In this document: positions 23,859-51,887 of the stretch, piece by piece | Position numbering within the stretch: position 1 is the first letter of the stretch | Layout: each line of letters opens with the position of its first letter | Origin: an uncultured Micrococcaceae bacterium | GTDB taxonomy: Bacteria > Actinomycetota > Actinomycetes > Actinomycetales > Micrococcaceae | Assembly: GCA_947502645.1 (NCBI GenBank) | Contig: CANNAD010000003.1 | Coordinates: forward strand, 118,622 to 182,621 | Direction of reading: 5' to 3' | Length of the DNA stretch: 64,000 bases | Notes under the pieces: model-generated | Seen by the model: the letters and a program-made list of their open reading frames with translations, nothing else | Database searches by the model: none | What the model was told of the DNA's origin: nothing | Program-made: the position numbers and the translations under genes

Positions 23859-24000
23859 AACGATCGCCACCTTTCGGTCCGCCGGCTGGCTTTTCCAACC
23901 GCGCTTCTAGTAAAGAATCTATCCCCGCCCGCCCTGCGTCGTCGATGGGCAGCCCTACCCATATAGGCCTCCCCATGCAGTTCTCCCCATGCACGCAGGC

Positions 24001-34699: not shown

Positions 34700-37056
34700 T
34701 ACCGTTGACCCTTCTGAAACAGCGAACGCGGAGAGAACTTGGCGCGCTGGCGCTTCCAGAACCCCACGGTGCCATTCATCTCCTTCAACGACGATTCGAC
34801 CTGTTCCCAGAATTCGCGCACTTCCGCCTCGGTCGGCTCCCGGGAACCAAAGATTCCGGCATCCGCACGATGGGCCAGGGCCGTTGTGGTCTGGCTGCTC
34901 TTCGGGAAGGACTCCTGCAGGCTCCGAGCGCTCTCCCGCCGGGTGGCCTTCGTGTTGACGCTTGCACCCATATCCGTGGCGAGGCTCAGAATTTCTTTCC
35001 AACCGCCGCCGACCCGTTGGGAGGGCATGCCCTCACGCGCCCGCTTCTTCCGGCGTCGGACCTTCAGCAGAAGGATCAGCAGCAGCGGGAGCAACAGGAT
35101 TCCGACGGGAATCAGGGCAATACCGATCAATCGCAGCAACGGACCCCAGATCGACCAGAAGTCTTCCTCTTTCTTCTCCGCATCCTGCGGTTCCGGAGCG
35201 GAATCCGGCGGCAGCTCGGCCGGTTCCTGAGGCGGTGGCGGCGGCTGCAGAACCTGGGGTTTGGGCGTTGATTTGGGCTGCTGCTGCGGTGGGATCGGTT
35301 CGTTGTCCTCGTCCGGAGTTGGGTCAAACGGAACCCATCCGGCGTCGTCGAAGGCAACTTCCACCCATGCATGAACGTCCTCGCCCTTGATGGCGATCCT
35401 GCCCTCAGGGTTCTTCACTTCGTCCCAGTCCGGGTAGAAGCCCATCACCACGCGGGCCGGTATGTTCAGTTTCCTGGCCATCAACGCCATGGCAACCGCG
35501 TACTGCTCGTCATCGCCGACCATCTGTTCGGCATCCAGAAGGGTGGTCATGCGCTTGGCGCCGTGACCGGGAAGCGAGGGAGGTTCGCCGTCCTTACCGT
35601 TGCTGAAGTAGCCCTGCGAGTGCAGCACCTGCTGCAGCCGGCGCACACGTTCAATGGGTTTGGATGCGGCACCGACGTATTCTGCTGCCTTGCTCGCGAT
35701 GATGGGCGGTTCGTTCTCCACACGCGGCAGGTTCAATCCCGCAAAGTCGTACTGCGCCAGCTGTTCATCGGTGGGATAGTCGGGGAAGGTCACGTTGACC
35801 TGATAACTGTCACCTTCCTGTAGCCCGATCGTGGACAGTGCTGTCCGTGCGTCGTCGTTGTAGTACAGGGCCTTTTCCAGGGAGCTTTCGCGCGGACCTG
35901 CCAGGGCTACCCCTTCCAGGGCGCCGCCCGAGGGCAGCCACACGCCGTCGTACTCCTTGATGGTGATGTCCAGGGTTGCGCTGGTGCCATCTTCTGAACG
36001 GTTGGTGCCGCCGAGTTGCTGCGCATCCCCCACCCGGGCAAAGTTCCCGGCCGCCTGCGGGTTCACGTTGTACACCACGCCGTTGTAGGCGTCGAGTGCT
36101 GCAAGGCGGATCCGTTGGCCCTCGGGCAGGCCGTCCACGGTGAACAGCGTTTTGTCGTCGTTGGTCTTTACGTACTGCCGGAAATCCATGAGCGGGCTGG
36201 GATAGTCAAACAATTCCACGGGAGGTACGACGACGTCGCGCAGCACCTGCCGCTGGCCGTTGACTGTCAGCAGCGGGACGGCAAGGACGGTCACAGCGGT
36301 GGCGCCGGCTACCATAGCGGCGCCGTAGCCAAGCCGGCGGTACTTTCCGCGCCGGGCAGTGCTGGCATCGCTGGATGCAGGGTTGGCTGAGACGCTGGTG
36401 CCGTTGTCGGTTCTGGCGATGTCGCGGCGGTAGGCCAGCCAGGCGACCATGGCCACGATGAGGAGGATGCCGCGCAGTTCCGGGAAACTGGCCCGGTTGG
36501 TGCCGAAGACGATGCTCGCGGCGAACAGGGCCACTACGGGTATCAGCACCCAGTACGGGGTGCGTACCCGCCAGGCCAGGACGCCGGCGACGACGGATGT
36601 CAGGAGTGCGCTGAGGAAGGGAACGATCAGCATTCCGCGCGATATGCCCACCGGTGCCGCGACGGTCAGGATGTCCTTCCACGAGGTCACCACACCGAGG
36701 ATGAGGACCCTCAGTGATTCCAGGGTGGGCAGGAAGCCAAGGAGGGATTCCGACGGCGCGGCCAGCGCGTTGCCCAGGAGCAGATATGTGCCCAGCACGA
36801 TTCCAGCGGTGCTCCACAGGCCAAGCCGGAACCGGGCCGAAGCCCACGCGATCGCGAGACCGAGCACGATGCCGCCGAATCCGGCGAGCAGGTAGTGCGG
36901 ATCAGATCCGAAGGCTGGCCCGAAGCCAAGCACCCCGAGTCCGAGAACCAGGAACAGGACGCCGGTGTCCACCAGACGCTGTCTGCCGTTGGCGGTTTTT
37001 CCTGCGCGGGTGGCACGCCGGCTGGTCTGTTGTTCCGTGGCGGGGCCGGCGCTCAT
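34699..37056 (-). CDS. Transglutaminase-like membrane protein with Asp at the nucleophile position
   Basis: A 785-residue membrane protein of the TgpA/DUF3488-transglutaminase type. About seven helices lie in residues 25-270 (VLFLVLGLGVLGFG, MLIVPFLSALLTSVVAGVLA). A large outer region carries a transglutaminase-like core, then a Pro-rich linker (KSTPKPQVLQPPPPPQEP), one more helix near 650-670, and a cytoplasmic tail with WKEILSLATDMGA. In the core, MVGDDEQYAVAMALMARKL aligns with the family's GxCxxFA block, so the catalytic Cys is Asp516. His562 (VHAWVEV) and Asp578 (FDPTPDED) of the triad remain. GPARVV-type context (IPARVVMGF) is intact. It is coupled with DUF58 (4-bp overlap) and RDD-FHA (1 bp). 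A binding or scaffold role is likely, not crosslinking. Confidence 0.88.
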   Translation of the reverse strand: MSAGPATEQQTSRRATRAGKTANGRQRLVDTGVLFLVLGLGVLGFGPAFGSDPHYLLAGFGGIVLGLAIAWASARFRLGLWSTAGIVLGTYLLLGNALAAPSESLLGFLPTLESLRVLILGVVTSWKDILTVAAPVGISRGMLIVPFLSALLTSVVAGVLAWRVRTPYWVLIPVVALFAASIVFGTNRASFPELRGILLIVAMVAWLAYRRDIARTDNGTSVSANPASSDASTARRGKYRRLGYGAAMVAGATAVTVLAVPLLTVNGQRQVLRDVVVPPVELFDYPSPLMDFRQYVKTNDDKTLFTVDGLPEGQRIRLAALDAYNGVVYNVNPQAAGNFARVGDAQQLGGTNRSEDGTSATLDITIKEYDGVWLPSGGALEGVALAGPRESSLEKALYYNDDARTALSTIGLQEGDSYQVNVTFPDYPTDEQLAQYDFAGLNLPRVENEPPIIASKAAEYVGAASKPIERVRRLQQVLHSQGYFSNGKDGEPPSLPGHGAKRMTTLLDAEQMVGDDEQYAVAMALMARKLNIPARVVMGFYPDWDEVKNPEGRIAIKGEDVHAWVEVAFDDAGWVPFDPTPDEDNEPIPPQQQPKSTPKPQVLQPPPPPQEPAELPPDSAPEPQDAEKKEEDFWSIWGPLLRLIGIALIPVGILLLPLLLILLLKVRRRKKRAREGMPSQRVGGGWKEILSLATDMGASVNTKATRRESARSLQESFPKSSQTTTALAHRADAGIFGSREPTEAEVREFWEQVESSLKEMNGTVGFWKRQRAKFSPRSLFQKGQR

Positions 37057-38336
37057 GCTGCTGCCTTCCGCAGGATCAGGGCAAGATCATCGAGCTCGCC
37101 GAGGGAGAGCACTGTCAGATCACCGATGCTGGCGCGTGCTGGTTCCTGTCCACTTTTGCAGCGGATAGCGATACAGCGGATACCGGGAGGCACCGAAGCG
37201 GCGGCGCTGCGCAGCTGGCCGGGAGTCACCAACGGACCAAGAACAAAAAACACGACAGAGGCGTTCGGTACGGCATCAGCCGTTGTCCGCGCAAGGTCAA
37301 CCGCCGTGGTGCGACCGGTGTGTCCGTCCACCCGGGTGAGTTCATCGAGCAGGTTCCTGCCGGTCTCGGAGCGCAGCGGGCCGGCCTGCGTGAGCACGTT
37401 GAGGTTGCGTTGTTCCCGGATGGCCTGGAGCCCAATGGATCCCGCCACTGACACGGCCAGCTCAAATTCCGCGGCGTCGTCGTACTCCGCAGCCTGTGTG
37501 GACAATGCGACGGCGAGGTGGGAGCGGCGCGTCTCCTCGAACTGGCGGACCATAAGTTTGTTGGTGCGGGCTGTCGTTTTCCAGTGGATGTGCCGCCTGT
37601 CATCGCCGGGAACGTAGTCACGCAGGGCGTGGAAGGAGACATCGGCGCTGGAGAGTTCGCGGGTTGGCAGGCCTTCGAGGTCCTTGATGAAACCTGCTGC
37701 CGAGCCCGCCAGGGGCGTGGTGCGCGGGTGCACGAAAAGGTCCGTCGGCTCCGTCCAGGTGACCTGGCGCCGCATGAGGCTCAGTGGGTCTGAACGGACG
37801 GAGCGAACAGGGCCCACGACGATGACGGCCCGGCGTTGGGTGGGAATGGTGAACAGATCCTCGTGGACCTGCTCCGGCTTCATGCGCGGCAGGTGAAAGA
37901 TAGCGGTGGCGTTACCCACCGGCAGCTCAAGCGACGCCGGCAGCAGCGCTTTGTTGGACGTGTTGGACACGGACACACTACCCACAGCTTGGTCTCCCAC
38001 TGCTACGCGGGTACGGGCAAGGTCCAGTTCCACACCGTAGGAAGACCGGCCGATGATGAAGAACACGGCCAGGACCAGCAGTGCTGTGCCGATAACGGCG
38101 GCAGCGACAGCTTCCTGCCAGGTGAAGACAAGGCCAGGGACGCCAAGAATGACGACGACGGCGATCACTATCCAGCCCAGTGGGCTGACGACGGCGATGG
38201 GCGGCTGGATATGCCGGGACCAGAGGCTGGAGACCCGGGTCCGTGCGGGCTGCAGGTATTCCCGTGCAGCACCGGCGCCCTCGGCCCACAGGGACGAGGG
38301 GTGGAACCGGCGTCGGGTATCCGTTGAGGTACTCAT
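37053..38336 (-). CDS. DUF58 domain protein
   Basis: A 427-residue membrane-anchored protein. Two helices lie near 45-95 (SPLGWIVIAVVVILGVPGLV and AVIGTALLVLAVFFIIG). A beta-rich segment follows, then the DUF58 motif SFHALRDYVPGDDRRHIHWK (about 232-251). A von Willebrand A-like part comes after it (SHLAVALSTQ, DDAAEFELAVSVAGSIG). DUF58 proteins almost always sit between MoxR and a transglutaminase-like protein, as here, and are thought to work with the MoxR AAA+ ATPase in assembling or activating complexes. The gene starts 17 bp after moxR and overlaps the transglutaminase gene by 4 bp (ATGA). Confidence 0.92.
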   Translation of the reverse strand: MSTSTDTRRRFHPSSLWAEGAGAAREYLQPARTRVSSLWSRHIQPPIAVVSPLGWIVIAVVVILGVPGLVFTWQEAVAAAVIGTALLVLAVFFIIGRSSYGVELDLARTRVAVGDQAVGSVSVSNTSNKALLPASLELPVGNATAIFHLPRMKPEQVHEDLFTIPTQRRAVIVVGPVRSVRSDPLSLMRRQVTWTEPTDLFVHPRTTPLAGSAAGFIKDLEGLPTRELSSADVSFHALRDYVPGDDRRHIHWKTTARTNKLMVRQFEETRRSHLAVALSTQAAEYDDAAEFELAVSVAGSIGLQAIREQRNLNVLTQAGPLRSETGRNLLDELTRVDGHTGRTTAVDLARTTADAVPNASVVFFVLGPLVTPGQLRSAAASVPPGIRCIAIRCKSGQEPARASIGDLTVLSLGELDDLALILRKAAA

Positions 38337-38353: not shown

Positions 38354-39325
38354 CTAGACGGTTGCGCGCTGCTGCGGTGCTGAAACGTCCGCCAGGATTC
38401 TCTTGAGGACAGCTTCAGGGGTGGCACCGGCGAATTCGGCTTCGGGATCCATGACAAACCGGTGGGTCCACACGTAGGGGGCAAGTTCCTTGACATCGTC
38501 CGGAAGAACGTAGTTGCGGTCCTGACTGGCCGCCCATACTTTCGCTGCACGGACCATGGCCAGGGCGCCGCGGACGCTGACGCCGAGCCGGGTCTCGGGG
38601 GCGTTGCGGGTTTCTTCGGTGAGCCGTGAAATGTATTCGAGAATCGCCGGGTCCACGTGGGTGGTGGCTGCGAGGTCCGCCATGTCGTTGACGGCCTGCG
38701 TGGTGATGATCGGTGTCAGTGCCAGGGAGCGGTCGCGGGTTGCCGCTCCGCCAAGAAGTTCCACCGTGGATGCGTGATCCGGGTAGCCGATGTGCGTTTT
38801 GATGAGGAAGCGGTCCAGCTGCGCCTCCGGAAGCCGGTATGTTCCGGCCTGCTCGATCGGGTTCTGTGTGGCGATGACCATGAAGGGGCGCGGGTTGGAG
38901 TGGGTCACACCGTCCACAGTGACCCGGGACTCTTCCATGACTTCCAGCAGTGCGGACTGCGTTTTCGGGGAGGCACGGTTGATTTCATCGGCGAGCACAA
39001 TATTCGCGAAGACGGGACCCTTGTGGAACTCGAAAACCTGGGTTTTCTGGTCATAGACGGTGATGCCGGTGACGTCCGAGGGCAAGAGGTCTGGTGTGAA
39101 CTGGATGCGGGAGTGTGAGCCCTGGACGGTAGCTGCGAGGGAACGCGCCAGCATGGTTTTACCGGTGCCGGGGGCGTCCTCCAGCAGGACATGGCTATCG
39201 GTGAGCATGGCGGTGAGCATCAGACGAACTACCCGTGGCTTCCCGAGAATCGCCTGCCCAACGTTGCCCACCAGCTTGTCAAAGGTTCCGGCAAACCAGG
39301 TAGCCTGCTCAGCGGTCATCGCCAT
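38354..39325 (-). CDS. MoxR family AAA+ ATPase
   Basis: A 323-residue AAA+ chaperone-like ATPase. Walker A LLEDAPGTGKTMLARSLA (about residues 53-70), Walker B NIVLADEINRASPKTQSALL (about 109-128), sensor-1 MVIATQNPIEQAGTYRLPEA, arginine-finger region LDRFLIKTHIGYPD, and a C-terminal lid (SRLTEETRNAPETRLGVSVR). MoxR proteins use ATP to remodel or mature partner proteins, typically with DUF58/VWA factors. The ATG at 39325 has GAAGGAAC upstream. It is located directly after the two giant surface-protein genes and before DUF58, making it the first catalytic component of this locus. Confidence 0.94.
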   Translation of the reverse strand: MAMTAEQATWFAGTFDKLVGNVGQAILGKPRVVRLMLTAMLTDSHVLLEDAPGTGKTMLARSLAATVQGSHSRIQFTPDLLPSDVTGITVYDQKTQVFEFHKGPVFANIVLADEINRASPKTQSALLEVMEESRVTVDGVTHSNPRPFMVIATQNPIEQAGTYRLPEAQLDRFLIKTHIGYPDHASTVELLGGAATRDRSLALTPIITTQAVNDMADLAATTHVDPAILEYISRLTEETRNAPETRLGVSVRGALAMVRAAKVWAASQDRNYVLPDDVKELAPYVWTHRFVMDPEAEFAGATPEAVLKRILADVSAPQQRATV

Positions 39326-39433: not shown

Positions 39434-42400
39434 CTACCAGCTGACATGGTTCGACTCCCAAGTGCGGCCGTCGCCCGTTGACACCCTGAAGAAGTACGGA
39501 CCCCAGTTGGGGTTGTGGTTGCTGGAGTCCTCGCGCTCGATCAGGCAGGCATCACCGATCTCGGCGCCACCACGCGAGTTGGTCTTGGTCACGTAGTTAC
39601 TGCCGAACTGGCCTGTGTTCTCGGTGTAGCAGCGGAAGATGACGGTGGTACTGGGTGGAAGGAGCTCGCCGATCATCAGGAAATAATTGCACCTGCCATC
39701 ACCACACACCGGTTCGCCATCTGCATTCTCGTTGTCAATGACGGGAGTATCGGCACCTTGCCGGAGGGTCAGTTCCGGCGATGCCGAACGGTCCGACGCC
39801 GTGAACGTCCGGCAATCACCGCCACCGCGGCAGACCTCGATCCGGACGTTGTGCCGGTCTTCAGGCTGGTTCCCACCAGTCCAGGAACCTGAGTTCGACA
39901 CAGATTTTCCGTCCACGGTCACGTTGACGGTGGCGCCACCCGGCTTCCCATTGGCATACGCAGAACCGTTCTTTTCCCACGTGAACGTCACGTTGAAACC
40001 GTTGACTGAGCTCCGGATATTCGAGGCATCCCGGATGGGGCCGAACGGTGTCACTGCATTCGAGGCAGCACTGGCGGGCCCGGGCCCAGCTTCGTTGCGT
40101 GCGCGGACCCGGAAGGAGTGTGAGTTTCCATTGGACAACCCATTCACCGCACTGCCAGGGCCGCCAAAGCCCTGCCAACTACCACCGTTGACACTGACCT
40201 GGTAACTGCTGATGGCACTGCCGTTGGAGGCGGGAGCACCGAAGTCCAGTTTCACTCGGCCGTCCTCGCCCGTGGCCTTCGCCGTTACCTGCCCCACACC
40301 ACCGGGGATGCCGAAGGGAACAACCGCACCGGACTGGGCGCTCGCAGCGGAGGCGCCCGCCTTATTCTGTGCGATGACGGCAAAGCGGTAATTGGAGCTC
40401 TTGTTCAACCCGGTCAGGGTGAGCCCGTTACTGCCTGCCTCGACGCTGCGCGACTGGGCAGAATCCAGGCTCCCATCCCGGTAGACCCGCAGATCGTACT
40501 TCTGGATCGGCGCACCATTATTTGCCGGTGCCTTCCAGGACACCACAATGGAACCGCCATTGACCGCATCCGTATTGCGGTCCGCGCGCGGAGCCAACGG
40601 CGTCGCTGGTGGGCCAGCCGGGGTTTCTGCAGCAGAGACGGGGCTCCAGTCAGAGGGCTCGGAGGCATCGTTAACAGCCTGAACCCGGATCTGGTACGCC
40701 GTACCATTACTCAGGCCCGCCCAGGTCAAGCTGGTCCCGGTGACCCCGGTCTTCTGGGTCACGCCGTTCGCTGGCGCAGGCGAGATCTCCAGATTGTAGG
40801 CCTTCACCGGCGACCCCTTGGATTCGGGTACATTCCAGCTGACATCGAGCTTGCTGTCACCGAACTTCAGGATCGGTGCTGCCGGTGCTTCCGGACGCAC
40901 ATCGGGCCGGGCAACGGCCGACGGCGGCGAGGGCTCGGACTCGCCCATTGCGTTGACCGCCACGACGGTAAAGGTGTATTCCACATTGTTGGTCAGGCCA
41001 GTGAGTTGGCACGTCGTGGAAGCACACTGTTGACTGAAGTTCGCTGCCGTAACCGTGTATCCGGTGATGGCCGAACCATTGTTCGCCGGCGGATCCCAGG
41101 AGAGCACCACCAGTTGGTCTCCGGTCCGCTCCACCACGGGAGTCAGCGGCGCATCGGGTGTGGACTTGACCGTCAGAAGAACCTGTCCGTCCACTTCACG
41201 TGCGGGATCGCCGGTGCGGTCCTGCACCCGGTAGGTCACGGTCATGGTGCCCACAAAGTCCTCGGCCGGAGTGACCTCCAGGGAGGACCCGTTCACAGAT
41301 GCGGATCCCTGACCAGTGCTCGTGACAGCCGAGATGATCTGCAGCGGTTCATCAGGGAACGGATTGACGTCGTTTTCCAGCACGTTCACCGTTACCGGCT
41401 GCCCCGATTCGGCTTCCGGCACGACGTCGTCGTTCGCTACAGGCAATGGACGATCGGTGGCCAGGACAATGATGTCCACCACCGCGGTCACGGGTTCATT
41501 GCTGCCGTCTGAAACGGACACCGTCACCGATCCGGCGTTGCCCTTTTCGGCGTCGGCATCAGCTTCGGCGCTCAGCACACTACCGTTCAGGGATACCCGC
41601 ACCCCATCAACGGTGGAGTCGGCAACGGAGAACTCAAGGTTCGGGACGTCTTCCGGGTTGGGGTCCGACGCCGCCTGCCGCAAATCCAGCGTGGCCGCCG
41701 CTTCACCCTGGGCTGCCTCGAGCGTATTGCCAGCGAGAGTGGGCGGAAGGTTCTCCTCAGGATCCGGCAGGACAGTGATGCCCACGCTCAGAGTCGATTT
41801 CAGGCCGTCGGGATCGTCGGGCCCCGAACCATCCGTGACCTCAAAAACCACCGAAGCGGGACCAGAAAAACCGTCCTCCGAAGTGAAGACCATGGTGTTC
41901 GCATCACTGACAGAAACCTGTCCGCCCACGGCGGTGACGCCGTCGGCCTCGGTCAGACGCGGCGTACGCCCGTTGCGGACCGTCACCAGATCATCGAGCT
42001 CCAGGGTGAGTTCTTCCCCGGATTGCACCTCCAGCGGAGGGAAATCCTTCAGGGTGGGATGCGGCTCCGCGGAACCGGGAATCATCATGAACGCGGTTGA
42101 GCTCAGCCCGTCCCTGTCCGTGAGCGTGTACGGAATGATCTGCGCTTTGGCTGTCAGCTGGACAACAGCAGTGCCATCTTCTCCCAGCGTCACGCCACCC
42201 GGGTTGCCGGGGAGGCTGGCCGTCACATCCGCAACCACGCCGTCCGGATCCTCATCGTTCTTCAGGAACGGTACGGTGACCTCCGTCTTGCCGACGGTTT
42301 CCGGAAACGGGAAGCGGTCATCGCGGGCAATGGGCGCCAGCAGCGGCGCGTCGGGACGCGCTTCGACGGTCAGCGTGGCCGTGTCAGTCCCGCCGCGTTC

Positions 42401-45400
42401 ATCGGAAGCCGTATAGCGGACCACGGTGTGGCCGGGAATTTCCGGTGCCGTCACCAGTACTTTCCCATCCTCCACACGAACGGGAACCTCTCCGATGGCT
42501 TCTGCCCCGCCGGGGGCGAAGACCACGCGGTCGCCGTCGGCGTCGGTGTCATTCCTGAGGACATCCACAGCGACCGTGCGGCCGGGGCGGACGATCGTGG
42601 AATCGTCGAGCGCAACCGGAGGCTGGTTGTTGTTGGCTTTCGGCGCAATCCCCACGGATATGGTGGCCGTGGAGCGGACACCGAGACGATCCGCCACAAC
42701 ATAACTGAACGTATCCGTTCCGCCGGTGTTTCCGCTGGCCCTGTAATCAATGTACGAAGCTCCCACGGTGGCGGTGCCCTTCGTGGGCGACTGCTCAATG
42801 CCGATCAGGGTCACGGAGTCGCCGTCGGGATCAATGCTGTTCAACGGAACAGCAATGCGGGTGCTCTGCCCCTCAAAAACCCGCCCGGTGAGGCTCTTGG
42901 GCTGCGGTGGAGAATTGTCCTCCACATCCAGTGGCTTGATATGGATGGTCACCTGGGCGGAAGACTCCTGCCCGTCCGGCCCGGCTACCGCGTAGATCGC
43001 ACGCACAGATTTCGCTTCGGTACCGGCACGGAAGCGCAGTTCCTCACCGGACATCGCCAGGAGGCCGTCGGCATCGTCCACCGTTTCCACCAGTTCCGGC
43101 AACAGGGTGATGGGCGCGCCGTTGGGATGTTCGTCGTTCGCCAGGACCGGGATATTGACGACGTCGTTGACGCGAACCGTGACCTCGTCCGGATTGGCGC
43201 GTGGAGGCTGCAGCTTCGCAGGCCGTGGGACAGGCACAATGGACACTTCCCCCACGGAACTTTCCAGTCCGTTGGAGACGGTGTACTTCACCACCGTCGG
43301 CGCCGCGAGGCCCCGAGTATCCGTAATCCGCAGGACGCTGTGATCCACCACGGATACGGTGATGGCCTTCTCGCCCGGCTGCGTCACGGACTGGACCACG
43401 AGCACTCCCCCGGCAGGGTCTGCATCATTGGCCAGTACGTCCACCAGCGCCTCCCCGCCAGCAGGCAGCAAGGCCATGTCATGGACCGCGACCGGGGCGC
43501 CGTCGTCTGCATTCGCCGCCTCAACATCTACCCGGATCAGCCCCGTAGCGCTGGCCGGTCCGTTACTGACCAGATACGTGAGGTAATAGGTGCCCACAGC
43601 TGCGGAACGGAACGTGATGGTTCCAACGTCCGCGTTCATGGTGACCGTGGCATCCTCCACCTGGTCAACCTGGGCCAGCCGCAGCCGGGCGTCCGTAGGG
43701 CTCGTGTCATTCTTCAGCGGCGATATGGTGGCGTCTTCGCCAGCGCTGATCCGCACGTGGTCGGCGTTGGCTACCGGCGGAAGCTTCCCGGCCGGCTCCA
43801 CCTTGAAGGTCATGTTCGACGTCGTTCGTTCACGACCGTCCGAAACGGTCACCGCCACGGTTTTCTCGCCGAGGCTCAAGCCAACATCCTGGAATGTCAG
43901 AACGCCATCGGCCCGGGTACGGACAATGTCCTGTTTGTTCTCCACGGCGGCGCCCACCAGCTGAAGCGGATCACCGTCCGGATCAACCCAGTCAGTCAGA
44001 ATGTTCTGGGTGATTTCCCCGCCCTGCTCAACCGTGATGACGGATTTACGCTCCTGCACGGGCGACTGGTTGCTCTCGGCGTCGACAACCTTCAACCGCA
44101 CACGCGCGGTGTCCTCACCGCCACGGCCGTCGTCGACCGTATAGGTGATGGTCTCGGAACCACTCGCATCCGGCGGGACAACGATCTGCAGACCCGTCCT
44201 GTTATAGATGGACTGAACCGTCCCGATCCCTGGCTGGCTCCCCTCCAGCGTGGCCGTCAGCAGGTCGCCGTCAGGATCCGAATCATTGAAAAGTATGGGC
44301 AACACAGTGGTGCGGCCCGGCCTGACACCGAAATCGTCATCCTCGGCCACAGGCTGGCGGTTGTCCTTGGTGCGGTCCGGCAGCGCGGTCTCCCGGCTGA
44401 CCTCGTTCGACTCTTCCTCGGAGTTTTTGTCGTCCTCGCCGGGGGGCGGAATCAGATCATCCCAGTTGTCCACCACCTGCATCTGGTCGGTCACCAACCA
44501 GATACTTCCACCGGACATGTCATTGAGGACGACGACGTCCCGGTTCACCCGGAAGGTCAGTTCCGACTGCGCCCCCAGAGACGGAATCGGCTCATTTCTG
44601 TCCTGTGCGGAATCCGTACACGAGCGAATATAGGTTCGGCTACCCACCCATGCGGAATGCACACACTGGCCCACAACCGCAGGCGCCGCCGGCTGTCCTC
44701 CGCCGGGAGCCTCGATCCGGCGTACATCACCGCTATCCAACGACACCGTGAACAGTGCGTCCGCTCCCGCAACTGCTGTACGCGCCGAGTCCACGGTGGT
44801 GCTCAGCTGCAGTGTCAGGTCGGTGCCCTCAAGTTCGACGACGGCCTCACCGGGCAGATAAAGCCTGCCAGCCTCGGCATCAAGCACCACGGGCATCTCG
44901 CCGGCGGCCGCTATCTGAAGTTCGTCGGCCTGTTCGAAGTCCCTCAACCGGCTGCTCGAGGCTTCGGCATACGTTCCGTCGTCGTCGCGCGTGAACGTGG
45001 TCAGATGACCGGTCTCGGGGGAAACAGAGAATATGGTGTCATCGTGCCCAACTGCCGTGACCAGACCTTTGGTGTCCTTGATCAGGGGGTCAGCACTCTC
45101 AGCGGAAAATGAAGCAAGCGCGTCAGGGGCAACAGCCCAGAGCGAGCCTGAGATTGGATCAGTGATGGCGACCATATCTGTGCCGAGGTCAACATCCGAG
45201 CCGCCCGGGATCCCTGTCGGCTGGCTCTGGCTCACCGTCGCTACATCCACGGTGCTGATACCGGACTGGTCCTGGTCCGTCATGAACACAGTGGCGCCGT
45301 CCTGAATGACGTCGAAAGAATTGGCTTTCGCCACGAAACCGCCGTCGAGCACCTTGGACTCATAGTTGAGGTGCCCCACCATGCCGGCAGCGTTGTTGGT

Positions 45401-45541
45401 CACCCAGACACCGCCGTCGTGCAGTTCCAGCTCAGCGGTTTTGAAACCCGGGTACAGGACAGCCCCGGTCACCGCGACACTCGCAGCAACACCGAAAGCA
45501 AGCGCCGAGACCGTGCGCGACCTGCCCCATGTGAACTTCAT
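39434..45541 (-). CDS. Giant Ig-like/FN3 repeat surface protein, copy 1
   Basis: A 2035-residue protein. A signal-anchor helix (SALAFGVAASVAVTGAVLYP) is followed by a beta-propeller-like region (about 35-360, with GGVWVTNNAAGMVGHLNY and VVVLNDMSGGSIWLVTDQMQ) and an acidic linker (GEDDKNSEEESNE). Eleven Ig/cadherin-like repeats (about 395-1460) carry Ca-binding-like motifs such as FNDSDPDGDLL and RNDTDADGD. Five FN3-like repeats follow (about 1464-1920). The last 100 residues form a distinct four-Cys domain (VCGDGRCNYFLMIGE, ending in TWESNHVSW). I use the ATG at 45541 rather than the TTG 6 bp earlier. It is collinear with the adjacent copy 2 except for this C-terminal tip. Probably surface-exposed; export route and role unknown. 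Confidence 0.88.
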   Translation of the reverse strand: MKFTWGRSRTVSALAFGVAASVAVTGAVLYPGFKTAELELHDGGVWVTNNAAGMVGHLNYESKVLDGGFVAKANSFDVIQDGATVFMTDQDQSGISTVDVATVSQSQPTGIPGGSDVDLGTDMVAITDPISGSLWAVAPDALASFSAESADPLIKDTKGLVTAVGHDDTIFSVSPETGHLTTFTRDDDGTYAEASSSRLRDFEQADELQIAAAGEMPVVLDAEAGRLYLPGEAVVELEGTDLTLQLSTTVDSARTAVAGADALFTVSLDSGDVRRIEAPGGGQPAAPAVVGQCVHSAWVGSRTYIRSCTDSAQDRNEPIPSLGAQSELTFRVNRDVVVLNDMSGGSIWLVTDQMQVVDNWDDLIPPPGEDDKNSEEESNEVSRETALPDRTKDNRQPVAEDDDFGVRPGRTTVLPILFNDSDPDGDLLTATLEGSQPGIGTVQSIYNRTGLQIVVPPDASGSETITYTVDDGRGGEDTARVRLKVVDAESNQSPVQERKSVITVEQGGEITQNILTDWVDPDGDPLQLVGAAVENKQDIVRTRADGVLTFQDVGLSLGEKTVAVTVSDGRERTTSNMTFKVEPAGKLPPVANADHVRISAGEDATISPLKNDTSPTDARLRLAQVDQVEDATVTMNADVGTITFRSAAVGTYYLTYLVSNGPASATGLIRVDVEAANADDGAPVAVHDMALLPAGGEALVDVLANDADPAGGVLVVQSVTQPGEKAITVSVVDHSVLRITDTRGLAAPTVVKYTVSNGLESSVGEVSIVPVPRPAKLQPPRANPDEVTVRVNDVVNIPVLANDEHPNGAPITLLPELVETVDDADGLLAMSGEELRFRAGTEAKSVRAIYAVAGPDGQESSAQVTIHIKPLDVEDNSPPQPKSLTGRVFEGQSTRIAVPLNSIDPDGDSVTLIGIEQSPTKGTATVGASYIDYRASGNTGGTDTFSYVVADRLGVRSTATISVGIAPKANNNQPPVALDDSTIVRPGRTVAVDVLRNDTDADGDRVVFAPGGAEAIGEVPVRVEDGKVLVTAPEIPGHTVVRYTASDERGGTDTATLTVEARPDAPLLAPIARDDRFPFPETVGKTEVTVPFLKNDEDPDGVVADVTASLPGNPGGVTLGEDGTAVVQLTAKAQIIPYTLTDRDGLSSTAFMMIPGSAEPHPTLKDFPPLEVQSGEELTLELDDLVTVRNGRTPRLTEADGVTAVGGQVSVSDANTMVFTSEDGFSGPASVVFEVTDGSGPDDPDGLKSTLSVGITVLPDPEENLPPTLAGNTLEAAQGEAAATLDLRQAASDPNPEDVPNLEFSVADSTVDGVRVSLNGSVLSAEADADAEKGNAGSVTVSVSDGSNEPVTAVVDIIVLATDRPLPVANDDVVPEAESGQPVTVNVLENDVNPFPDEPLQIISAVTSTGQGSASVNGSSLEVTPAEDFVGTMTVTYRVQDRTGDPAREVDGQVLLTVKSTPDAPLTPVVERTGDQLVVLSWDPPANNGSAITGYTVTAANFSQQCASTTCQLTGLTNNVEYTFTVVAVNAMGESEPSPPSAVARPDVRPEAPAAPILKFGDSKLDVSWNVPESKGSPVKAYNLEISPAPANGVTQKTGVTGTSLTWAGLSNGTAYQIRVQAVNDASEPSDWSPVSAAETPAGPPATPLAPRADRNTDAVNGGSIVVSWKAPANNGAPIQKYDLRVYRDGSLDSAQSRSVEAGSNGLTLTGLNKSSNYRFAVIAQNKAGASAASAQSGAVVPFGIPGGVGQVTAKATGEDGRVKLDFGAPASNGSAISSYQVSVNGGSWQGFGGPGSAVNGLSNGNSHSFRVRARNEAGPGPASAASNAVTPFGPIRDASNIRSSVNGFNVTFTWEKNGSAYANGKPGGATVNVTVDGKSVSNSGSWTGGNQPEDRHNVRIEVCRGGGDCRTFTASDRSASPELTLRQGADTPVIDNENADGEPVCGDGRCNYFLMIGELLPPSTTVIFRCYTENTGQFGSNYVTKTNSRGGAEIGDACLIEREDSSNHNPNWGPYFFRVSTGDGRTWESNHVSW

Positions 45542-45613
45542 CCCCAAGAATGCCCCTCAGCAACATCTACCTGGACCGCGGACGGCGGACCGGCACCAGT
45601 CTATCCGCTGGAG

Positions 45614-48600
45614 TCAACAGCGAGGCATGCCAGTCGGCTTACTTCCGTACAGGTTGGCTTGCGTACCAGCTTCCCGGACATGCAGGCCCTTGACGATGAG
45701 ACCGTTGTTGATGCCCCGCGTACCGGCAACCTGTTTGTACCACAGGCCGCTTCCCGAACTGACAAAGCAGGATGCGGTGATGGAGTTGCCCGGGTAGGTC
45801 CAGTGATCGCCCTTGCAGTTGCCCGGGCCGCCATAGTTGTTGCTGCTGAAGTCCGGGGATTCCATGCACGACCTGGTGGTCAGATCAGTCCGACCGCCGC
45901 CGACAACAAGATCCCATCGAGTCTGCGGAGGCTTGGGAGCTGCCCCTGCCTGACCGCTGATGACCCTGCCTTCCGAGCACTGGCCCGTGACGTCGCAGGT
46001 CTGGAATTCGAGAGAGACGGACTTTCCATAATCATCGGCCGGGAAATCTGCCTTTCCGGACATCCCTCCGTTCCTCCATTCCTTGGTCGGAGCCACGTGG
46101 CGGTAGCGAACATAAGCTACTGCCCGACCATTCGACGCGGGTGCGGACCAGGTGAAGTACACGCGCTTATTACCGCGTTCGCTTGTGCCCGAGGAGGCAT
46201 TGGGCGCATGCGGCCGCCCATAGGGAGTGACCGCATTCGAGGCACCGCTGGGAGCCCCGTTCATGCTGGCACCGTCGCTGTTGACCACAGCGCGCAGCGT
46301 CGCAGTAACCCTGCTGCCGTTGGCGAAACCGGACACGGTGTCGCCCGAGTTGACGCCGCGCCAGCCGCCGCCGTTGAAGCTGGCCTGGTAGCTGACCTCT
46401 CCGGCCCGTGCCCCATTGCGCTGTGCTGCGGTGAGCGGGCTGAACGTGATGGTTACGCTTTGACCGGTACCACCGGTGTTGGTCTCCCGCAGCTGCGCCG
46501 GAGCAGGTGAAGCCGGTGATCCAACAGCGCGCCGTGGTGCAGACTGTGCTCCAAAGACGCTCCAGCCAGCCTTGTTTTTGGCGCGGACATCATAGGTGTA
46601 TCCCTGCTCGGAATTCGGAACCGTGATGGTTTGCTCGGAGACGCCGACCACGGGCAGGGTGCGCCGCAACGTGTTGCCCACATACTCGCGCACTTCGTAC
46701 GCCGTGACCTCTGCCCCGTTGTCCGCTACGTCATTCCAGTCCACCTTCAACTGGCTCTGTGCACCAACGGACTCCACACGCTGCGTGGTGGGCGCGGCGG
46801 GAACGTCCGGTATTCCCGCAGGAATCTCCGCGGCCGAATAGTCGCTCCAGTCGGAGGGATCCGGAGCCTTGTTGTGAGCCTGCACCCGCACCTTGTATGC
46901 CGTGCCGTTCTGCAGACCGGTCCACGTCAATGCCGTACCCGTTGCTGTCTTCTGGCTGGCACCGTTGCGCGGCGCAGGAGAGATCTGCAGAGTGTACTTC
47001 TCCACCGGCGAACCCTCGTTCTTCGGCGGAGTCCACTGCACGTCCAGTTCCCCGTCCCCGAACGTCAGGACCGGAGGCTGAGGCTGCTCGGGTTTCGCGT
47101 CCGGCCTGGCCGTGGCTGATTCCGGCGACGGATCAGACGTTCCGTGTTCGTTGACCGCGGCCACCCGAAAAATGTACTCGGTGTTGTTGGTCAGACCAGT
47201 GAGCGTGCAGGTGGTCGTGGTGCAGTCCTGGCTGAATCCACGATTACTGGTGACCTGGTAGGAGGTAATCGGCGAACCATTGCTGGCCGGCGGATCCCAG
47301 GCCAGCACCACGGTCTGGTTACGGACGCTCTCCACCGCAGGAGTGCTCGGCACACCGGGCTTACCCTCCACGGTCAGCAGGATCTGTGCGGACACCTGCC
47401 GGGAGCCCTCACCGGTTTTGTCCTTCACCGTGTAGGTAACGCTCATACTTCCAACGAAGTCCGAGGCAGGGGTAACAACGATCCGGTCGCCGTCCTGTGA
47501 GGCAGTACCGTTGCCGTCAGCGACCACGCGGACGATTTCCAGCGGCGAGTCCGGGAACGGATTCACGTCATTGGCCAGCACATCCACGGGGACAGACTTG
47601 CCCTGAACGGCCTCCGGGACCGTGTCATCGTTGGCAACCGGCAGCGGCCGCGACGAGGCCAGGACACTCAGATCAATCGAGGAAAGCACTTTTTCACTTC
47701 GTCCGTCCGTCACCGATACGGACAGCCGGCCGGTCGTACCGACGGGGGCATCCGAAGCGGCCTCAATGCTCAACGTGGAACCCTGCAGCGAGCCGGTGAA
47801 TCCGGGCGGCACAGCCCCCTCCAACGCAAACTTCAACCGGTCGACGTCGTCGGGGTTTGGATCATCGGCGAGCGCACGCAGGTCAAGTGAGGCGGCAGGT
47901 TCGGCTTTGGCCACCTCGAGCGACCCGGACGTGAACGTTGGCGGGAAGTTGCGGTCCTTGTCCGGGATGACGTTGGTGAGGACGGTCAGTGTGGACTTCA
48001 GGCCCTCGGGGTCATCCGGTCCGGAGCCATCGGTCACCTCGAAGGTGATGGATCCGATGCCTTCATAGTCGATGTCGGCCTGGTAGCTCAGCGTGTTTTC
48101 GTCGGCAACCCAATCCTGGCTGGATGTTCCGATGGCAGAAACGTTTTCCTGGACCGTGAGGCGCGGAGTGCGGCCCTCACGCACCCGGACGTAATCGGCC
48201 AGGTCAAGGGTGAGTTCCTTGCCGGCAGCGACGTCGATGGGGCCCTTTTCGGTCAGCACGGGGTGCTGTTGTCCGCGGCCCGGTACCCAGATCAGCGCTG
48301 TTCCCAGGCCGCCGTCGATGTCCTCGACGGTGTAGGGGATGGCTCGCGGAGTGTCAGTGAGTTCCACCTTCACGACGCCGTCGGCGACGCTTACGCCCTC
48401 GTATTTTGCGGAGTTCACGGTGACGGTAAGGTCTTCGGCGACGCCGTCGGGATCTTCATCGTTCTCCAGTACGGGAACGTCTACAGCTTCGCGGCCCATG
48501 GTTTCGGCCGGTTCCACCCGGTCATCCTTCGCGATGGGTGCAAGGAGTGGGGCGTTCTGGTCCACGATGACCCGGATGTTGCCGACGGCGTCCGCACCGC

Positions 48601-51600
48601 GGCTGTCTTTGACGGTGTAACGCACGTTGTAGGTGCCGCCCTGTTCCGGTGCGGTGAACAGCACCCGTCCCTTGACGACCTCGGGATTCATGGTCTCGGG
48701 GGTGGCTGAGACGCCGTCTCCAGTCAGGGAAATGGCATCTCCATCAGGGTCGGAGTCGTTGCGCAGGGCATCCACGGCGATGGACCGCCCGGGGCGAAGT
48801 TCCACTCCGTCATCCACGGTGACCGGTTTCTGGTTCCGCTCAGCCAGCGGCGCAATCCCTACCTGGACGGTGGCGGTTGCCACGGCGCCGAGTCGGTCCC
48901 GCACCGCGTAGGTGAAGGAGTCCGTGCCGCCGGCCGCGGCGGATGCGGTGTAGTCGATGTAGTCCGGGCCCGCTACGGCGGCACCGAGCTCGGGAGCCTG
49001 ATCGATGCCGGTCAGGGAAACGGAGTCTCCGTCTGCGTCCAGACCGGAGAGCGGTACGGGAATCCGTACGGTAGATCCGGCAATGACGCGTGCTTCAACA
49101 TTTCTCGGTGTTGGCGGCGTGTTCCGTTCGTCCTGGGGACGAATGGTAATCCGGACTTCGGCTGAATCTTTCTGACCTGAGCTATCCACTACCTCGTAGA
49201 TCGCATACACGGTTTTCGCGGTGTCGCCTGCGACGAAGCGGAGGGTGTTCTCGGAGACGAACAGCTGCCCGTCCTCTGGTGCCACATCCTGTGCGATGAC
49301 CGGATTGAGGGTCAGTTCATCCCCGTTGGGGTGCGTGTCATTTTCGAGCACAGGGATGTTGACGACGTCCCCGCTCCTGACGATCGCTGTATCCGGTTCG
49401 GCCCGTGGCGGAAGAACTTCATCCGGCGCTTCAATGGACAGGACGTTGACTTCACCGGTCGCTGAGGCCTGACCATTGGAGACCGTGTATTTTACGGTCT
49501 CCTGGCCTTTAAGGCCGCCAACATCATGGATGCGGAGGACATTGTGCTCCAGAATGGCTACCTTCAACGGGGAGCCGGCTGCAACCTCGACCGACTGAAC
49601 CACGAGGATTCCGCCAGCTGGGTCTGAGTCATTGGCCAGAACGTCCACCAGGACGTCCCCGTGCCCAGGTAGCAGCGCAACATCGCGGACCGCGATGGGC
49701 GATCCCTCATCGCTGTCGGATTCAGCATCCACCCGGATGAGGCCGCTGGCACTCTTGGGACCGTTGGTGGCCAGATACTCGATGTAGTACGTGCCCGCCT
49801 TGGCCGGCGTGAACTTGATGGTTCCGGTCTCGTAGTCAGGAACGGCTTTCGCGTCTCCCGTGAACGTGACTTTTGCCAGTCTCAGCTCGCCGCCCGTGGC
49901 ATCAATGTCGTTGCTCAGCGGCGATATTTCGGTCTGCTGGCCAACGGTTGAGGTCACGTGGTCAAAGTTGACCACGGGCGGCAGAACCCCTGCTGCCCGA
50001 ACGTCCATGGTGACCACGCCCGACGTCGACTCCCGCCCATCGGAGACCTCGATGCGGACTTCCTTGGGCCCGAGCGATTTGCCGATGTCGCGGAAGGTCA
50101 GCATGCCGTCATACCGGCTGCGCACCTGGTCTCCGACATCTGTGGGCTCAGCACCTACGAGGAAGAGGTCGTCGCCGTCCGGATCCGTCCAGTTGCTGAG
50201 GATGTTCTGACTGACGCTTTTGCCCTCCTCCACCAGAATGGTGGTGGCCCGCTTGGGCTTGGGAGCCTCGTTGCTCTCGGCGTCCTTGATCTGGACGGTT
50301 GCCGTGGCTGTGGCCTTGCCGCCGCGGCCGTCGCCCACCTCATAGGTGAACTGCTGGCGGCCTGCAGCGGCGTCCTCGGGCACCACGACCTGCAGTCCCC
50401 CGCCGTCATAGACGGGCTGAACACTCAGCCCCTCAGGCGCATCGCCCGAGAGCCGGGCCTTCAGCAGGTCGCCGTCGGGATCCGTGTCATTGTCCAGAAT
50501 CGTCAGAATGGTGGTCTGTCCGGCACGGGCCCCGAAAGAATCATCCTCAGCTACTGGAGGACGGTTCTCCTTGGTCCTGTCCGGGAGCGTAGTCACCAGG
50601 GACTCGTTGGCCGATTCATCCTCTTCATCATCGGCTTCGTCCTGCGGGGGCATGATGTCCCCCCAGTTGTTCACCAACATCATGTTCTGGTTGACCAGCC
50701 AGATATCCCCGGCGTTCATGTCATTGAGAACGACGACGTCCCGGTTCACCCGAAATACCAGGTCCGCATTCCCGCCAATACCTTTGATCTCTTCCGAGCG
50801 GTCATGGGAATCATCCGCGCAGTCACGGATATACCGGGCGCTGGACCAGGCTGCGTAGATGCAGTCACCCTGCTGAACCGGGGCGGCCGGCTGGCCGGGC
50901 ACCTCGATGTCGGTGATGACCGGCTCTCCGCCGTCGAGCGGCTGTTTGATGAGCCCCTTCGTGGTGGCGATGGCCACATGATCAGAGGCTGTCCCGCTCT
51001 GCTGAAGGCGCGCGTCCCGGGAGTTCTCCACGGTGACGGACTTCCCGTCCGGAAGGATCAGGACACCGGATTCGCTGTCGAAGACCACGGGAAGGTTTCC
51101 GACGGCGGCAATCTGCGCGTCACCGAAGTCTGACAACGCCTCCGCCGTTGTGACCGAAGGCTCCGGTACGCTGCCGTCAGCGGCCACAGCAAAGGAAAGT
51201 ATGGATGATGTCGCCGGGTCCGCGATCAGTACCGTATCCGTGGAGGAAACAGCGGCGACTGCCCCGGGGGACTCCTTGATAACCGGCTTCTGCGACTTGC
51301 CGCTGAAACCCCCGAGCTCATCAGCTTTCGTGATCCACACCGTGCCAGTGGCATTTTCCGTGATCGCCACGATCTGCGAACCCAGCGCAATATCGGCCGT
51401 GCCTGGCAACTGGGTCTCCGTGCCACGCACCACGTTGGCAATATCCACCGGGGAGACCATGGACTGGTCCGTGTTCAGGTTCAGCACGGTGCGGCCCGCC
51501 TGCGCCACATCGAAACCATCGCTATTGGCTGTGTAGCCGCCGTCAATCAACTGTGACTGGTAATTGAGGTGGCCCACCATGCCGAGGTTCTGGTTGGTGA

Positions 51601-51760
51601 CCCACACGCCGCCGTCGTTCAGCTCCACGTCCGCGGTAGCAAAACCAGGATAGAGAACGGCACCGGCAACAAGCGCGACAGACAGCACGGAGACACCGGC
51701 GGTGGTGACGGCACGACGGCGTCTGCGAAGCGTAGGCAGAAGGTGGCTGAAAAACTTCAC
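45614..51760 (-). CDS. Giant Ig-like/FN3 repeat surface protein, copy 2
   Basis: A 2048-residue paralogue of the next gene, 72 bp upstream of it. Same order: N-terminal anchor (RAVTTAGVSVLSVALVAGAV), propeller-like region with GGVWVTNQNLGMVGHLNYQS and VVLNDMNAGDIWLVNQNMM, and acidic linker (DEADDEEDESANES). Then eleven Ig/cadherin-like repeats (about 400-1460, e.g. DNDTDPDGDLLKA), five FN3-like repeats, and a C-terminal Cys-containing tip. The tip (about 1950-2048; RSCMESPDFSSNNYGG, ASCFVSSGSGLWYKQVAGT) differs from copy 1 and resembles an SH3-like module. I chose the GTG at 51760 (VKFFSHLLPTL) because it aligns with MKFTWGRS of copy 1; 28 further upstream in-frame codons cover the promoter region. 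Probably first gene of the main transcript. Confidence 0.87.
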   Translation of the reverse strand: MKFFSHLLPTLRRRRRAVTTAGVSVLSVALVAGAVLYPGFATADVELNDGGVWVTNQNLGMVGHLNYQSQLIDGGYTANSDGFDVAQAGRTVLNLNTDQSMVSPVDIANVVRGTETQLPGTADIALGSQIVAITENATGTVWITKADELGGFSGKSQKPVIKESPGAVAAVSSTDTVLIADPATSSILSFAVAADGSVPEPSVTTAEALSDFGDAQIAAVGNLPVVFDSESGVLILPDGKSVTVENSRDARLQQSGTASDHVAIATTKGLIKQPLDGGEPVITDIEVPGQPAAPVQQGDCIYAAWSSARYIRDCADDSHDRSEEIKGIGGNADLVFRVNRDVVVLNDMNAGDIWLVNQNMMLVNNWGDIMPPQDEADDEEDESANESLVTTLPDRTKENRPPVAEDDSFGARAGQTTILTILDNDTDPDGDLLKARLSGDAPEGLSVQPVYDGGGLQVVVPEDAAAGRQQFTYEVGDGRGGKATATATVQIKDAESNEAPKPKRATTILVEEGKSVSQNILSNWTDPDGDDLFLVGAEPTDVGDQVRSRYDGMLTFRDIGKSLGPKEVRIEVSDGRESTSGVVTMDVRAAGVLPPVVNFDHVTSTVGQQTEISPLSNDIDATGGELRLAKVTFTGDAKAVPDYETGTIKFTPAKAGTYYIEYLATNGPKSASGLIRVDAESDSDEGSPIAVRDVALLPGHGDVLVDVLANDSDPAGGILVVQSVEVAAGSPLKVAILEHNVLRIHDVGGLKGQETVKYTVSNGQASATGEVNVLSIEAPDEVLPPRAEPDTAIVRSGDVVNIPVLENDTHPNGDELTLNPVIAQDVAPEDGQLFVSENTLRFVAGDTAKTVYAIYEVVDSSGQKDSAEVRITIRPQDERNTPPTPRNVEARVIAGSTVRIPVPLSGLDADGDSVSLTGIDQAPELGAAVAGPDYIDYTASAAAGGTDSFTYAVRDRLGAVATATVQVGIAPLAERNQKPVTVDDGVELRPGRSIAVDALRNDSDPDGDAISLTGDGVSATPETMNPEVVKGRVLFTAPEQGGTYNVRYTVKDSRGADAVGNIRVIVDQNAPLLAPIAKDDRVEPAETMGREAVDVPVLENDEDPDGVAEDLTVTVNSAKYEGVSVADGVVKVELTDTPRAIPYTVEDIDGGLGTALIWVPGRGQQHPVLTEKGPIDVAAGKELTLDLADYVRVREGRTPRLTVQENVSAIGTSSQDWVADENTLSYQADIDYEGIGSITFEVTDGSGPDDPEGLKSTLTVLTNVIPDKDRNFPPTFTSGSLEVAKAEPAASLDLRALADDPNPDDVDRLKFALEGAVPPGFTGSLQGSTLSIEAASDAPVGTTGRLSVSVTDGRSEKVLSSIDLSVLASSRPLPVANDDTVPEAVQGKSVPVDVLANDVNPFPDSPLEIVRVVADGNGTASQDGDRIVVTPASDFVGSMSVTYTVKDKTGEGSRQVSAQILLTVEGKPGVPSTPAVESVRNQTVVLAWDPPASNGSPITSYQVTSNRGFSQDCTTTTCTLTGLTNNTEYIFRVAAVNEHGTSDPSPESATARPDAKPEQPQPPVLTFGDGELDVQWTPPKNEGSPVEKYTLQISPAPRNGASQKTATGTALTWTGLQNGTAYKVRVQAHNKAPDPSDWSDYSAAEIPAGIPDVPAAPTTQRVESVGAQSQLKVDWNDVADNGAEVTAYEVREYVGNTLRRTLPVVGVSEQTITVPNSEQGYTYDVRAKNKAGWSVFGAQSAPRRAVGSPASPAPAQLRETNTGGTGQSVTITFSPLTAAQRNGARAGEVSYQASFNGGGWRGVNSGDTVSGFANGSRVTATLRAVVNSDGASMNGAPSGASNAVTPYGRPHAPNASSGTSERGNKRVYFTWSAPASNGRAVAYVRYRHVAPTKEWRNGGMSGKADFPADDYGKSVSLEFQTCDVTGQCSEGRVISGQAGAAPKPPQTRWDLVVGGGRTDLTTRSCMESPDFSSNNYGGPGNCKGDHWTYPGNSITASCFVSSGSGLWYKQVAGTRGINNGLIVKGLHVREAGTQANLYGSKPTGMPRC

Positions 51761-51809
51761 GGCGGAAATCCAGGCGGTTCGAGGGACGGTAACGGGACCG
51801 GATAAGTCC

Positions 51810-51840
51810 TCTATAAGAGTGCCACGCCCCGTCAATCCAA
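51810..51840 (-). promoter_or_regulatory. Possible promoter of the giant-protein/type VII-like locus
   Basis: The 127-bp gap between the cyclase stop and the GTG of copy 2 holds TATAGA (51810-51815, minus strand). Upstream TTGGAT is 19 bp away and TTGACG 14 bp away, neither at ideal spacing. It is the best promoter-like sequence in the gap, but the assignment is weak. Confidence 0.35.
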
Positions 51841-51887
51841 CCAAGCGCCAGACATGGGCAGAACTCTCCCATGCGGCACGAGCAGAC

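Follow-up and report, generated by a model that had tools for sequence, protein, structure and literature searches.

Tandem giant stalk proteins of a Micrococcaceae bacterium with conserved shafts and replaced C-terminal tips

The DNA analysed here, called the window in the following, is a stretch of 64,000 nucleotides from an uncultured Micrococcaceae bacterium (GenBank assembly GCA_947502645.1, contig CANNAD010000003.1, positions 118,622 to 182,621). Its minus strand, which carries all genes discussed below, encodes two giant tandem paralogues of 2,037 (copy 1) and 2,076 residues (copy 2), which we call stalk proteins: each has an N-terminal helix and domain (N-domain), a shaft of immunoglobulin (Ig)-like and FN3-like repeats, and a Cys-containing tip. 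Sequence comparison with relatives indicates that the tips behave as cassettes on conserved shafts, which is a new finding, and that the two paralogue lineages keep distinct broad tip groups, Ig-like for copy 1 and SH3-like for copy 2. We propose, with somewhat more confidence than doubt, that the proteins are phospho-regulated, membrane-anchored display stalks with exchangeable recognition tips. A description made earlier from the letters of the window (the original prediction) had recognized two tandem giant paralogues with the same scaffold. This is confirmed by two open, unbroken frames with the same domain order, by exactly two stalk copies in the 2.67 Mb source genome and by the presence of the pair in both genomes of the window's genus.

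Conserved shafts and replaced tips

The two copies differ mainly at the C-terminal end, as had been predicted. Block identity between them is 35–55% in the N-domain, 44–62% from residue ~270 to ~1660, 29–42% from ~1660 to ~1845 and 21–29% in the last ~190 residues. The tips, i.e. the last ~110 residues, do not appear to share one conserved fold: a profile comparison with hhalign found no relation between tip 1 and tip 2 (probability 2.9%), and their predicted strand patterns differ.

Faster change of tips than of stalks, a check that the original prediction had suggested, is evident among relatives. The comparison of close pairs covered 77 of 94 rows, 3′-truncated rows and four short open reading frames (ORFs) being left out. 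A shaft identity of 80% or more was reached by 606 pairs, in which identity averaged 82% for the N-domain, 89 and 82% for the Ig parts, 85% for the first FN3 repeat, 61% for the last FN3 repeat and 41% for the tip, and the low N-domain identities among these pairs include a row that ends at a contig end. Tips were less than 40% identical in 374 of the 606 pairs. When each of the 91 shafts having a relative of at least 80% identity was compared with its nearest shaft, the tip was less than 45% identical in 28 cases, and 14 of these 28 shafts share an 80–94% identical tip with another shaft. The best tip partners of the window's own tips reach just 37% and 53%.

The same replacement can be followed in the DNA. 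Between Arthrobacter sp. Leaf234 (L059) and A. bussei (L060), whose shafts are 99% identical, DNA identity is 92–98% until about 0.5 kb before the stop codon, 28–63% through the tip and again 93–100% from roughly 85–145 nt past the stop. Identity falls over the last 0.2–0.85 kb and recovers within about 160 nt past the stop in six of seven close pairs; for the seventh (L056/L064) the record ends too early. The copy 2 tips of the two genomes in the window's genus share 23% identity, compared with 79–89% for the rest of the protein, and the change has clear edges in the DNA. The copy 1 tip is 61% identical to that of the genus mate G297, compared with 83–93% for the rest, and belongs to the same tip class.

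To place the tips on the shafts, a FastTree tree of the Ig shafts was used that comprises 114 rows (122 rows minus five with other C-termini and three duplicates) and contains several long branches. Stalks ending in FN3-like, Pro-rich or low-complexity sequence were left out of the tip tree. Copy 1 belongs to a clade of 12 rows (support 93) with ten Ig-like tips and two unassigned ones (L053, L121), copy 2 to a clade of 81 rows (support 99) that all carry the SH3-like tip group. The tip groups are defined as BLAST clusters, not by fold, and a single change on the shaft tree separates the SH3-like group from all others. As far as sequence goes, the prediction of stalks with different tips is supported, the tip group differing between the paralogue clades. 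On a finer scale, eleven tip classes (50% identity) in 84 rows require at least 23 changes on the shaft tree, with a minimum of 10 and with 50 or more in 100 shuffles. Thus, tips move, but not at random. Both tandem copies are on the copy 2 side in most Arthrobacter loci, whereas L049, L053 and L108 have a second copy on the copy 1 side. The usual Arthrobacter pair is therefore no simple orthologue of the window's pair.

Orphan or silent tip cassettes were considered and discarded: none was evident in 61 genomes of the family searched with the SH3-like tip profile, the Ig-like profile not having been searched. Of 22 matches to the SH3-like profile, 21 lie in open frames of 1,684–2,440 residues and thus of stalk size (the N-domain was not checked in each of them); the remaining match (27 bits) lies in an 866-residue frame with a stop. 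The tip donors are therefore probably alleles of other genomes and not silent copies. In a single genome (L116:5257-18841), tandem copies with 83% identical shafts carry tips of two classes that are 19% identical, apparently the result of a recent duplication followed by tip replacement.

For copy 1, structure prediction of the 225-residue end (mean pLDDT 83.2) gave a tip domain made up of strands only, and model residues ~111–225 superpose on Ig constant domains with VIA Z scores of about 8 over 89–91 residues at a root mean square deviation of 3.0–3.2, although Z values of 7–8 can come from a common arrangement. The model of the copy 2 end (mean pLDDT 84.7) has an FN3 domain immediately before the tip, and the tip shows a different element order with two long strands among short ones. 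By eye, this predicted strand order is compatible with an SH3-like barrel, which keeps the "SH3-like" label of the original prediction plausible. However, no SH3 Pfam match was found in the 25 members of this tip set, and hhalign gave a probability of 0.7% against the family's SH3b domains; one weak SH3_3 match (E 0.053) was found in one of the 20 members of the other, copy 1 type set. Foldseek and VIA results on the copy 2 end are filled by the FN3 domain and hardly probe the tip itself. Matches of the copy 2 tip to antibody domains (best E 3.9e-05) were judged to be due to chance, reflecting a Cys-Trp pattern. Each of the two tip alignments contains four invariant or near-invariant Cys.

Domain architecture and gene cluster

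A hydropathy scan found one hydrophobic helix per window protein, at the N-terminus as predicted, in 19-residue windows starting at residue 13 in copy 1 and 45 in copy 2; 92 of 122 stalk proteins have such a helix at the threshold used. The N-domain that follows is conserved in an alignment of 22 rows, including two invariant Cys, and a search of 297 genomes of the order found the N-domain family in 171 (E ≤ 0.001), which rules out chance. Its best PDB matches, all below threshold, are virginiamycin B lyase and an NHL protein, and Pfam gave ten scattered sub-threshold matches, among them NHL in three and Vgb lyase in two of the 22 rows. Since both are propellers, a propeller is likely, and the propeller-like region of the original prediction is retained at this sub-threshold level. 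Apart from FN3, PDB and Pfam searches of the tips and the N-domain gave nothing convincing. The predicted acidic linker is visible by eye in both copies. The earlier count of eleven Ig and five FN3 repeats was right to within degenerate repeats, Pfam recognizing 11 and 10 Big_9 and 4 and 3 fn3 stretches in copies 1 and 2, respectively. Position 51760, taken before as the end of the pair, may instead be a GTG start codon inside copy 2, whose full frame reaches 51844. The features of the two genes are:

45614–51844, minus strand: copy 2 stalk gene, 2076 residues from a TTG, GTG at 51760 also possible (ORF, Pfam)
51650–51712, minus strand: copy 2 N-terminal membrane anchor helix, residues ~45–65 (hydropathy scan)
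50630–51715, minus strand: copy 2 N-terminal domain, helix plus propeller-like part (alignment, weak propeller matches)
50564–50650, minus strand: copy 2 acidic linker (sequence, by eye)
47375–50566, minus strand: copy 2 Ig/cadherin-like repeats, 10 Big_9 stretches, borders approximate (Pfam)
45965–47350, minus strand: copy 2 FN3-like repeats, 3 fn3 stretches, borders approximate (Pfam and model)
45617–45949, minus strand: copy 2 tip, putative SH3-like Cys domain (predicted model, tip alignment, genus-mate comparison)
39434–45547, minus strand: copy 1 stalk gene, 2037 residues from a TTG, ATG at 45541 (ORF, Pfam)
45449–45511, minus strand: copy 1 N-terminal membrane anchor helix, residues ~13–33 (hydropathy scan)
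44432–45541, minus strand: copy 1 N-terminal domain, helix plus propeller-like part (alignment, weak propeller matches)
44366–44452, minus strand: copy 1 acidic linker (sequence, by eye)
41183–44368, minus strand: copy 1 Ig/cadherin-like repeats, 11 Big_9 stretches, borders approximate (Pfam)
39773–41155, minus strand: copy 1 FN3-like repeats, 4 fn3 stretches, borders approximate (Pfam)
39437–39769, minus strand: copy 1 tip, predicted Ig-like Cys domain, same class in G297 (predicted model, tip alignment, genus-mate comparison)

In the direction of transcription, copy 2 and copy 1 are followed by these genes, in this order:

38354–39325, minus strand: MoxR AAA+ ATPase (Pfam AAA_3, 213.9 bits)
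37053–38336, minus strand: DUF58 protein (Pfam)
34699–37056, minus strand: TgpA-type protein with TgpA_N and transglutaminase core, tgm (Pfam)
33323–34700, minus strand: RDD and FHA protein, start uncertain, open frame to 35002 (Pfam)
32433–33326, minus strand: PP2C phosphatase (Pfam)
30823–32433, minus strand: FHA protein (Pfam)
29189–30823, minus strand: Ser/Thr kinase, pkb2/TsdD-like, start approximate (Pfam); by eye, a hydrophobic segment and an extra C-terminal domain
28431–29135, minus strand: 234-residue protein, kept in relatives (no Pfam match at E ≤ 0.001)
24001–28434, minus strand: EccC/TsdC-type ATPase with FHA domain (Pfam, orthologue class)
23592–23870, minus strand: WXG100 protein, TsdA-like (PF06013, 32.2 bits)

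Membership of the MoxR protein in MoxR-vWA-propeller ternary systems was considered and dropped, as bpMoxR scored 43.7 bits compared with 213.9 for AAA_3. The first ~90 residues of the FHA-EccC protein (28123–28434), ahead of its FHA domain, are conserved in L107, L109, L120 and L125 and look ubiquitin-like by eye; the weak best match is a redesigned ubiquitin (E 0.011), and Pfam gave no match. If this were real, the ubiquitin-like part reported missing from the type VII secretion system T7SSd would be fused to the ATPase.

A proposed display function and its alternatives

The reading that accounts for the constant shaft as well as for the exchanged end is that a fixed stalk displays a variable recognition tip. 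We propose that the N-terminal helix fixes each stalk in the membrane with the propeller-like base just outside, and that a series of about fifteen Ig/FN3 modules places the C-terminus within the wall or outside it, where the Cys-containing end domain of ~100 residues would act as recognition tip; the invariant Cys of the N-domain and tips would fit an extracytoplasmic location. The tip segment would be a cassette and the shaft would be retained: homologous recombination in the conserved flanks, with the last FN3 repeats on one side and the next gene on the other, would move tips between lineages. Such exchange might be favoured because it pays for an exposed tip to differ, e.g. in phage escape, in partner or prey recognition or in adhesion. 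The kinase, PP2C and FHA proteins may gate the module, the MoxR, DUF58 and transglutaminase proteins may serve its assembly or remodelling, and the TsdC/WXG100 exporter, where present, might use or depend on it. More speculatively, and in our opinion improbably, the tips could form a recognition code of alleles shared across species and traded by recombination on two conserved stalks, which decides which neighbour cells or phages engage a phospho-gated contact apparatus, in many species coupled to the type VII exporter. Tip replacement is a handle on function: strains with near-identical shafts and different tips are natural swap experiments.

Several observations weigh against display stalks with exchangeable tips. 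DNA identity falls gradually in L042/L046 and L025/L029, and in more distant pairs fast divergence could look like replacement; the DNA comparison comprises seven pairs and the window's two. Nor does every tip turn over, as the two species of the genus have copy 1 tips of one and the same Ig-like class. At the hydropathy threshold, 30 of 122 stalk proteins are without an N-terminal helix, and the tip profiles match no known binding family. Furthermore, not all stalks carry such a tip: the C-termini of L136, L141, L142 and L143 are FN3-like or Pro-rich, and four stalk ends examined from loci in the order of the Bifidobacterium PFNA operon (see below) are low-complexity tails.

The giant protein TsdI of T7SSd has been proposed to span the envelope and to serve as a conduit or in target recognition, according to the available text of Garrett et al. 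2024 (PMC11217815). The window matches T7SSd in an FHA-bearing EccC (TsdC), a WXG100 protein (TsdA), a Ser/Thr kinase (TsdD) and a giant Ig-like protein, and its stalks resemble TsdI in being giant Ig-like proteins with an N-terminal helix. However, TsdI of O. uli also has a C-terminal membrane helix (PMC11217815), which the hydropathy scan found in none of 122 stalk proteins. MoxR, transglutaminase and fibronectin do not occur in the main text of PMC11217815, the one relevant paper in the literature searched on T7SSd and TsdI.

With the cut-off for TsdC-type EccC at E ≤ 1e-60, set in a gap of the score list, 81 of the 297 genomes of the order have stalk and TsdC, 90 the stalk only, 6 TsdC only and 120 neither, a count that treats close relatives separately and so overstates the independence of the cases. 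The giant stalk thus occurs more widely than the TsdC exporter, which is its optional partner: 90 of 171 stalk genomes are without TsdC, so that the stalk module, though linked to type VII secretion, is not bound to it. These counts bear on the conduit suggested in the original prediction, in which the stalks would be structural, TsdI-like parts of the exporter that form or line the wall path of EccC/TsdC substrates. The association itself is strong, the shaft accompanying TsdC in 81 of 87 genomes, and stalks, EccC and WXG100 share one cluster in the window, G297 and G041. Yet G214 keeps the operon, with a shorter stalk frame (1523 residues), although neither WXG100 (cut-off E ≤ 0.01) nor EccC (cut-off E ≤ 1e-6) has a match there. 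In G240 and G261 ligA directly follows the operon in the place of EccC, though EccC-like matches occur elsewhere in both genomes. These objections are softened by a divergent EccC (27–29%) adjoining the operon in three TsdC-less genomes examined (G099, G281, G038) and by some WXG100 protein in 28 of 29 TsdC-less stalk genomes examined. A conduit also gives no reason for tip swapping, and we consider a structural role in the exporter unlikely.

Some further observations concern the exporter genes. A divergent EccC adjoins the stalk operon in three genomes without TsdC (L146, L147, L148) and is encoded on the opposite strand in two of these, which looks like the replacement of one exporter by another. 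In the survey of genes beside the operon, L149 gave no match and L151 one FHA fragment. Outside the window, the source genome encodes an EccC-like FtsK protein in a 1308-residue frame (G000:C1:16654-17298) and a second WXG100 protein (G000:C3:514050-514304), perhaps a separate conventional type VII system.

The second known relative is the PFNA operon of Bifidobacterium, with pkb2, fn3, aaa-atp, duf58 and tgm and also prpC and fha, as the available text of PMC8430577 and PMC10688814 describes it. Its core set of kinase, FN3, MoxR, DUF58 and transglutaminase proteins is present in the window according to Pfam. The PFNA FN3 protein resembles the window stalks in length (about 2,000 residues), in its FN3 domains, published as a pair at 1494–1671 (PMC10688814), and in its neighbours. 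In contrast, the window has two stalk copies, more FN3-like repeats, Cys tips and attached EccC and WXG100, and its kinase lies at the far end, after the FHA genes, whereas pkb2 directly precedes fn3 in PFNA (PMC10688814, Figure 1 legend). Kinase, stalk, MoxR, DUF58 and transglutaminase in PFNA order were found in five genomes (1.9–3.1 Mb) of one genus, probably Bifidobacterium, followed by PP2C within the stretch in four of the five. The five stalks are 32–33% identical to a window stalk from residue ~20–70 to ~1640–1700.

According to the consulted text of the PFNA papers, no other organism was found to have orthologues (PMC6803598) and FN3 occurs in bifidobacteria only (PMC8430577); our data argue against both statements. 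A review has already compared the mycobacterial moxR operon with PFNA (PMC12067865, available text). The searched text of the PFNA papers does not contain "type VII secretion", nor that of PMC8430577 WXG100 or FtsK. The window joins PFNA and T7SSd, which no paper in the literature searched treats together. Searches on FN3-MoxR-DUF58-transglutaminase clusters yielded no mention of Arthrobacter, and those on tip swapping in giant adhesins no matching paper.

Less probable than a part in the exporter is an adhesin function, with tips that bind ligands of a host or of the environment. Almost all named loci come from Arthrobacter and relatives, which are mostly soil organisms, and the four PFNA-order stalk ends are without these tips, so that a ligand need not be shared. 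What speaks for adhesins is the homologous locus in PFNA order in the five genomes, together with the published binding of TNF-alpha, as one example of the cytokine binding claimed for Bifidobacterium FN3, by a fragment of FN3 domains plus C-terminal part, neither alone being sufficient (PMC10688814, available text).

EsaA/YueB of T7SSb is a surface component with an elongated domain able to span peptidoglycan and a possible contact role (PMC9600267, available text); we compare it with the stalks as a functional analogy only. By that analogy, phages using the stalk end of an otherwise structural stalk as receptor might drive tip diversity, for which the confinement of replacement to one end and YueB of the Bacillus type VII system, the receptor of phage SPP1 (PMC9600267), can be cited, but we consider this the least probable of the explanations and very unlikely.

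Distribution of the stalk locus

The scan of named genomes took the best 80 of 179 confirmed stretches and gave the 64 loci referred to above. A second N-domain ORF lies within the stretch taken in 30 of the 64 loci, the stretches being limited in length. Gene order is largely conserved across 20 stretches compared, and L115 and L121 have a stalk without the neighbour genes. One locus with a Micrococcaceae-type stalk (L033) is in a record titled Vibrio cholerae 35D, which is probably mislabelled or contaminated. At L137:5812-12396, the stalk ORF continues in frame and with no stop into MoxR (2194 residues), reflecting either a gene fusion or a sequencing error; four further genomes of the same genus have a stalk frame that ends close to or ahead of the MoxR match.

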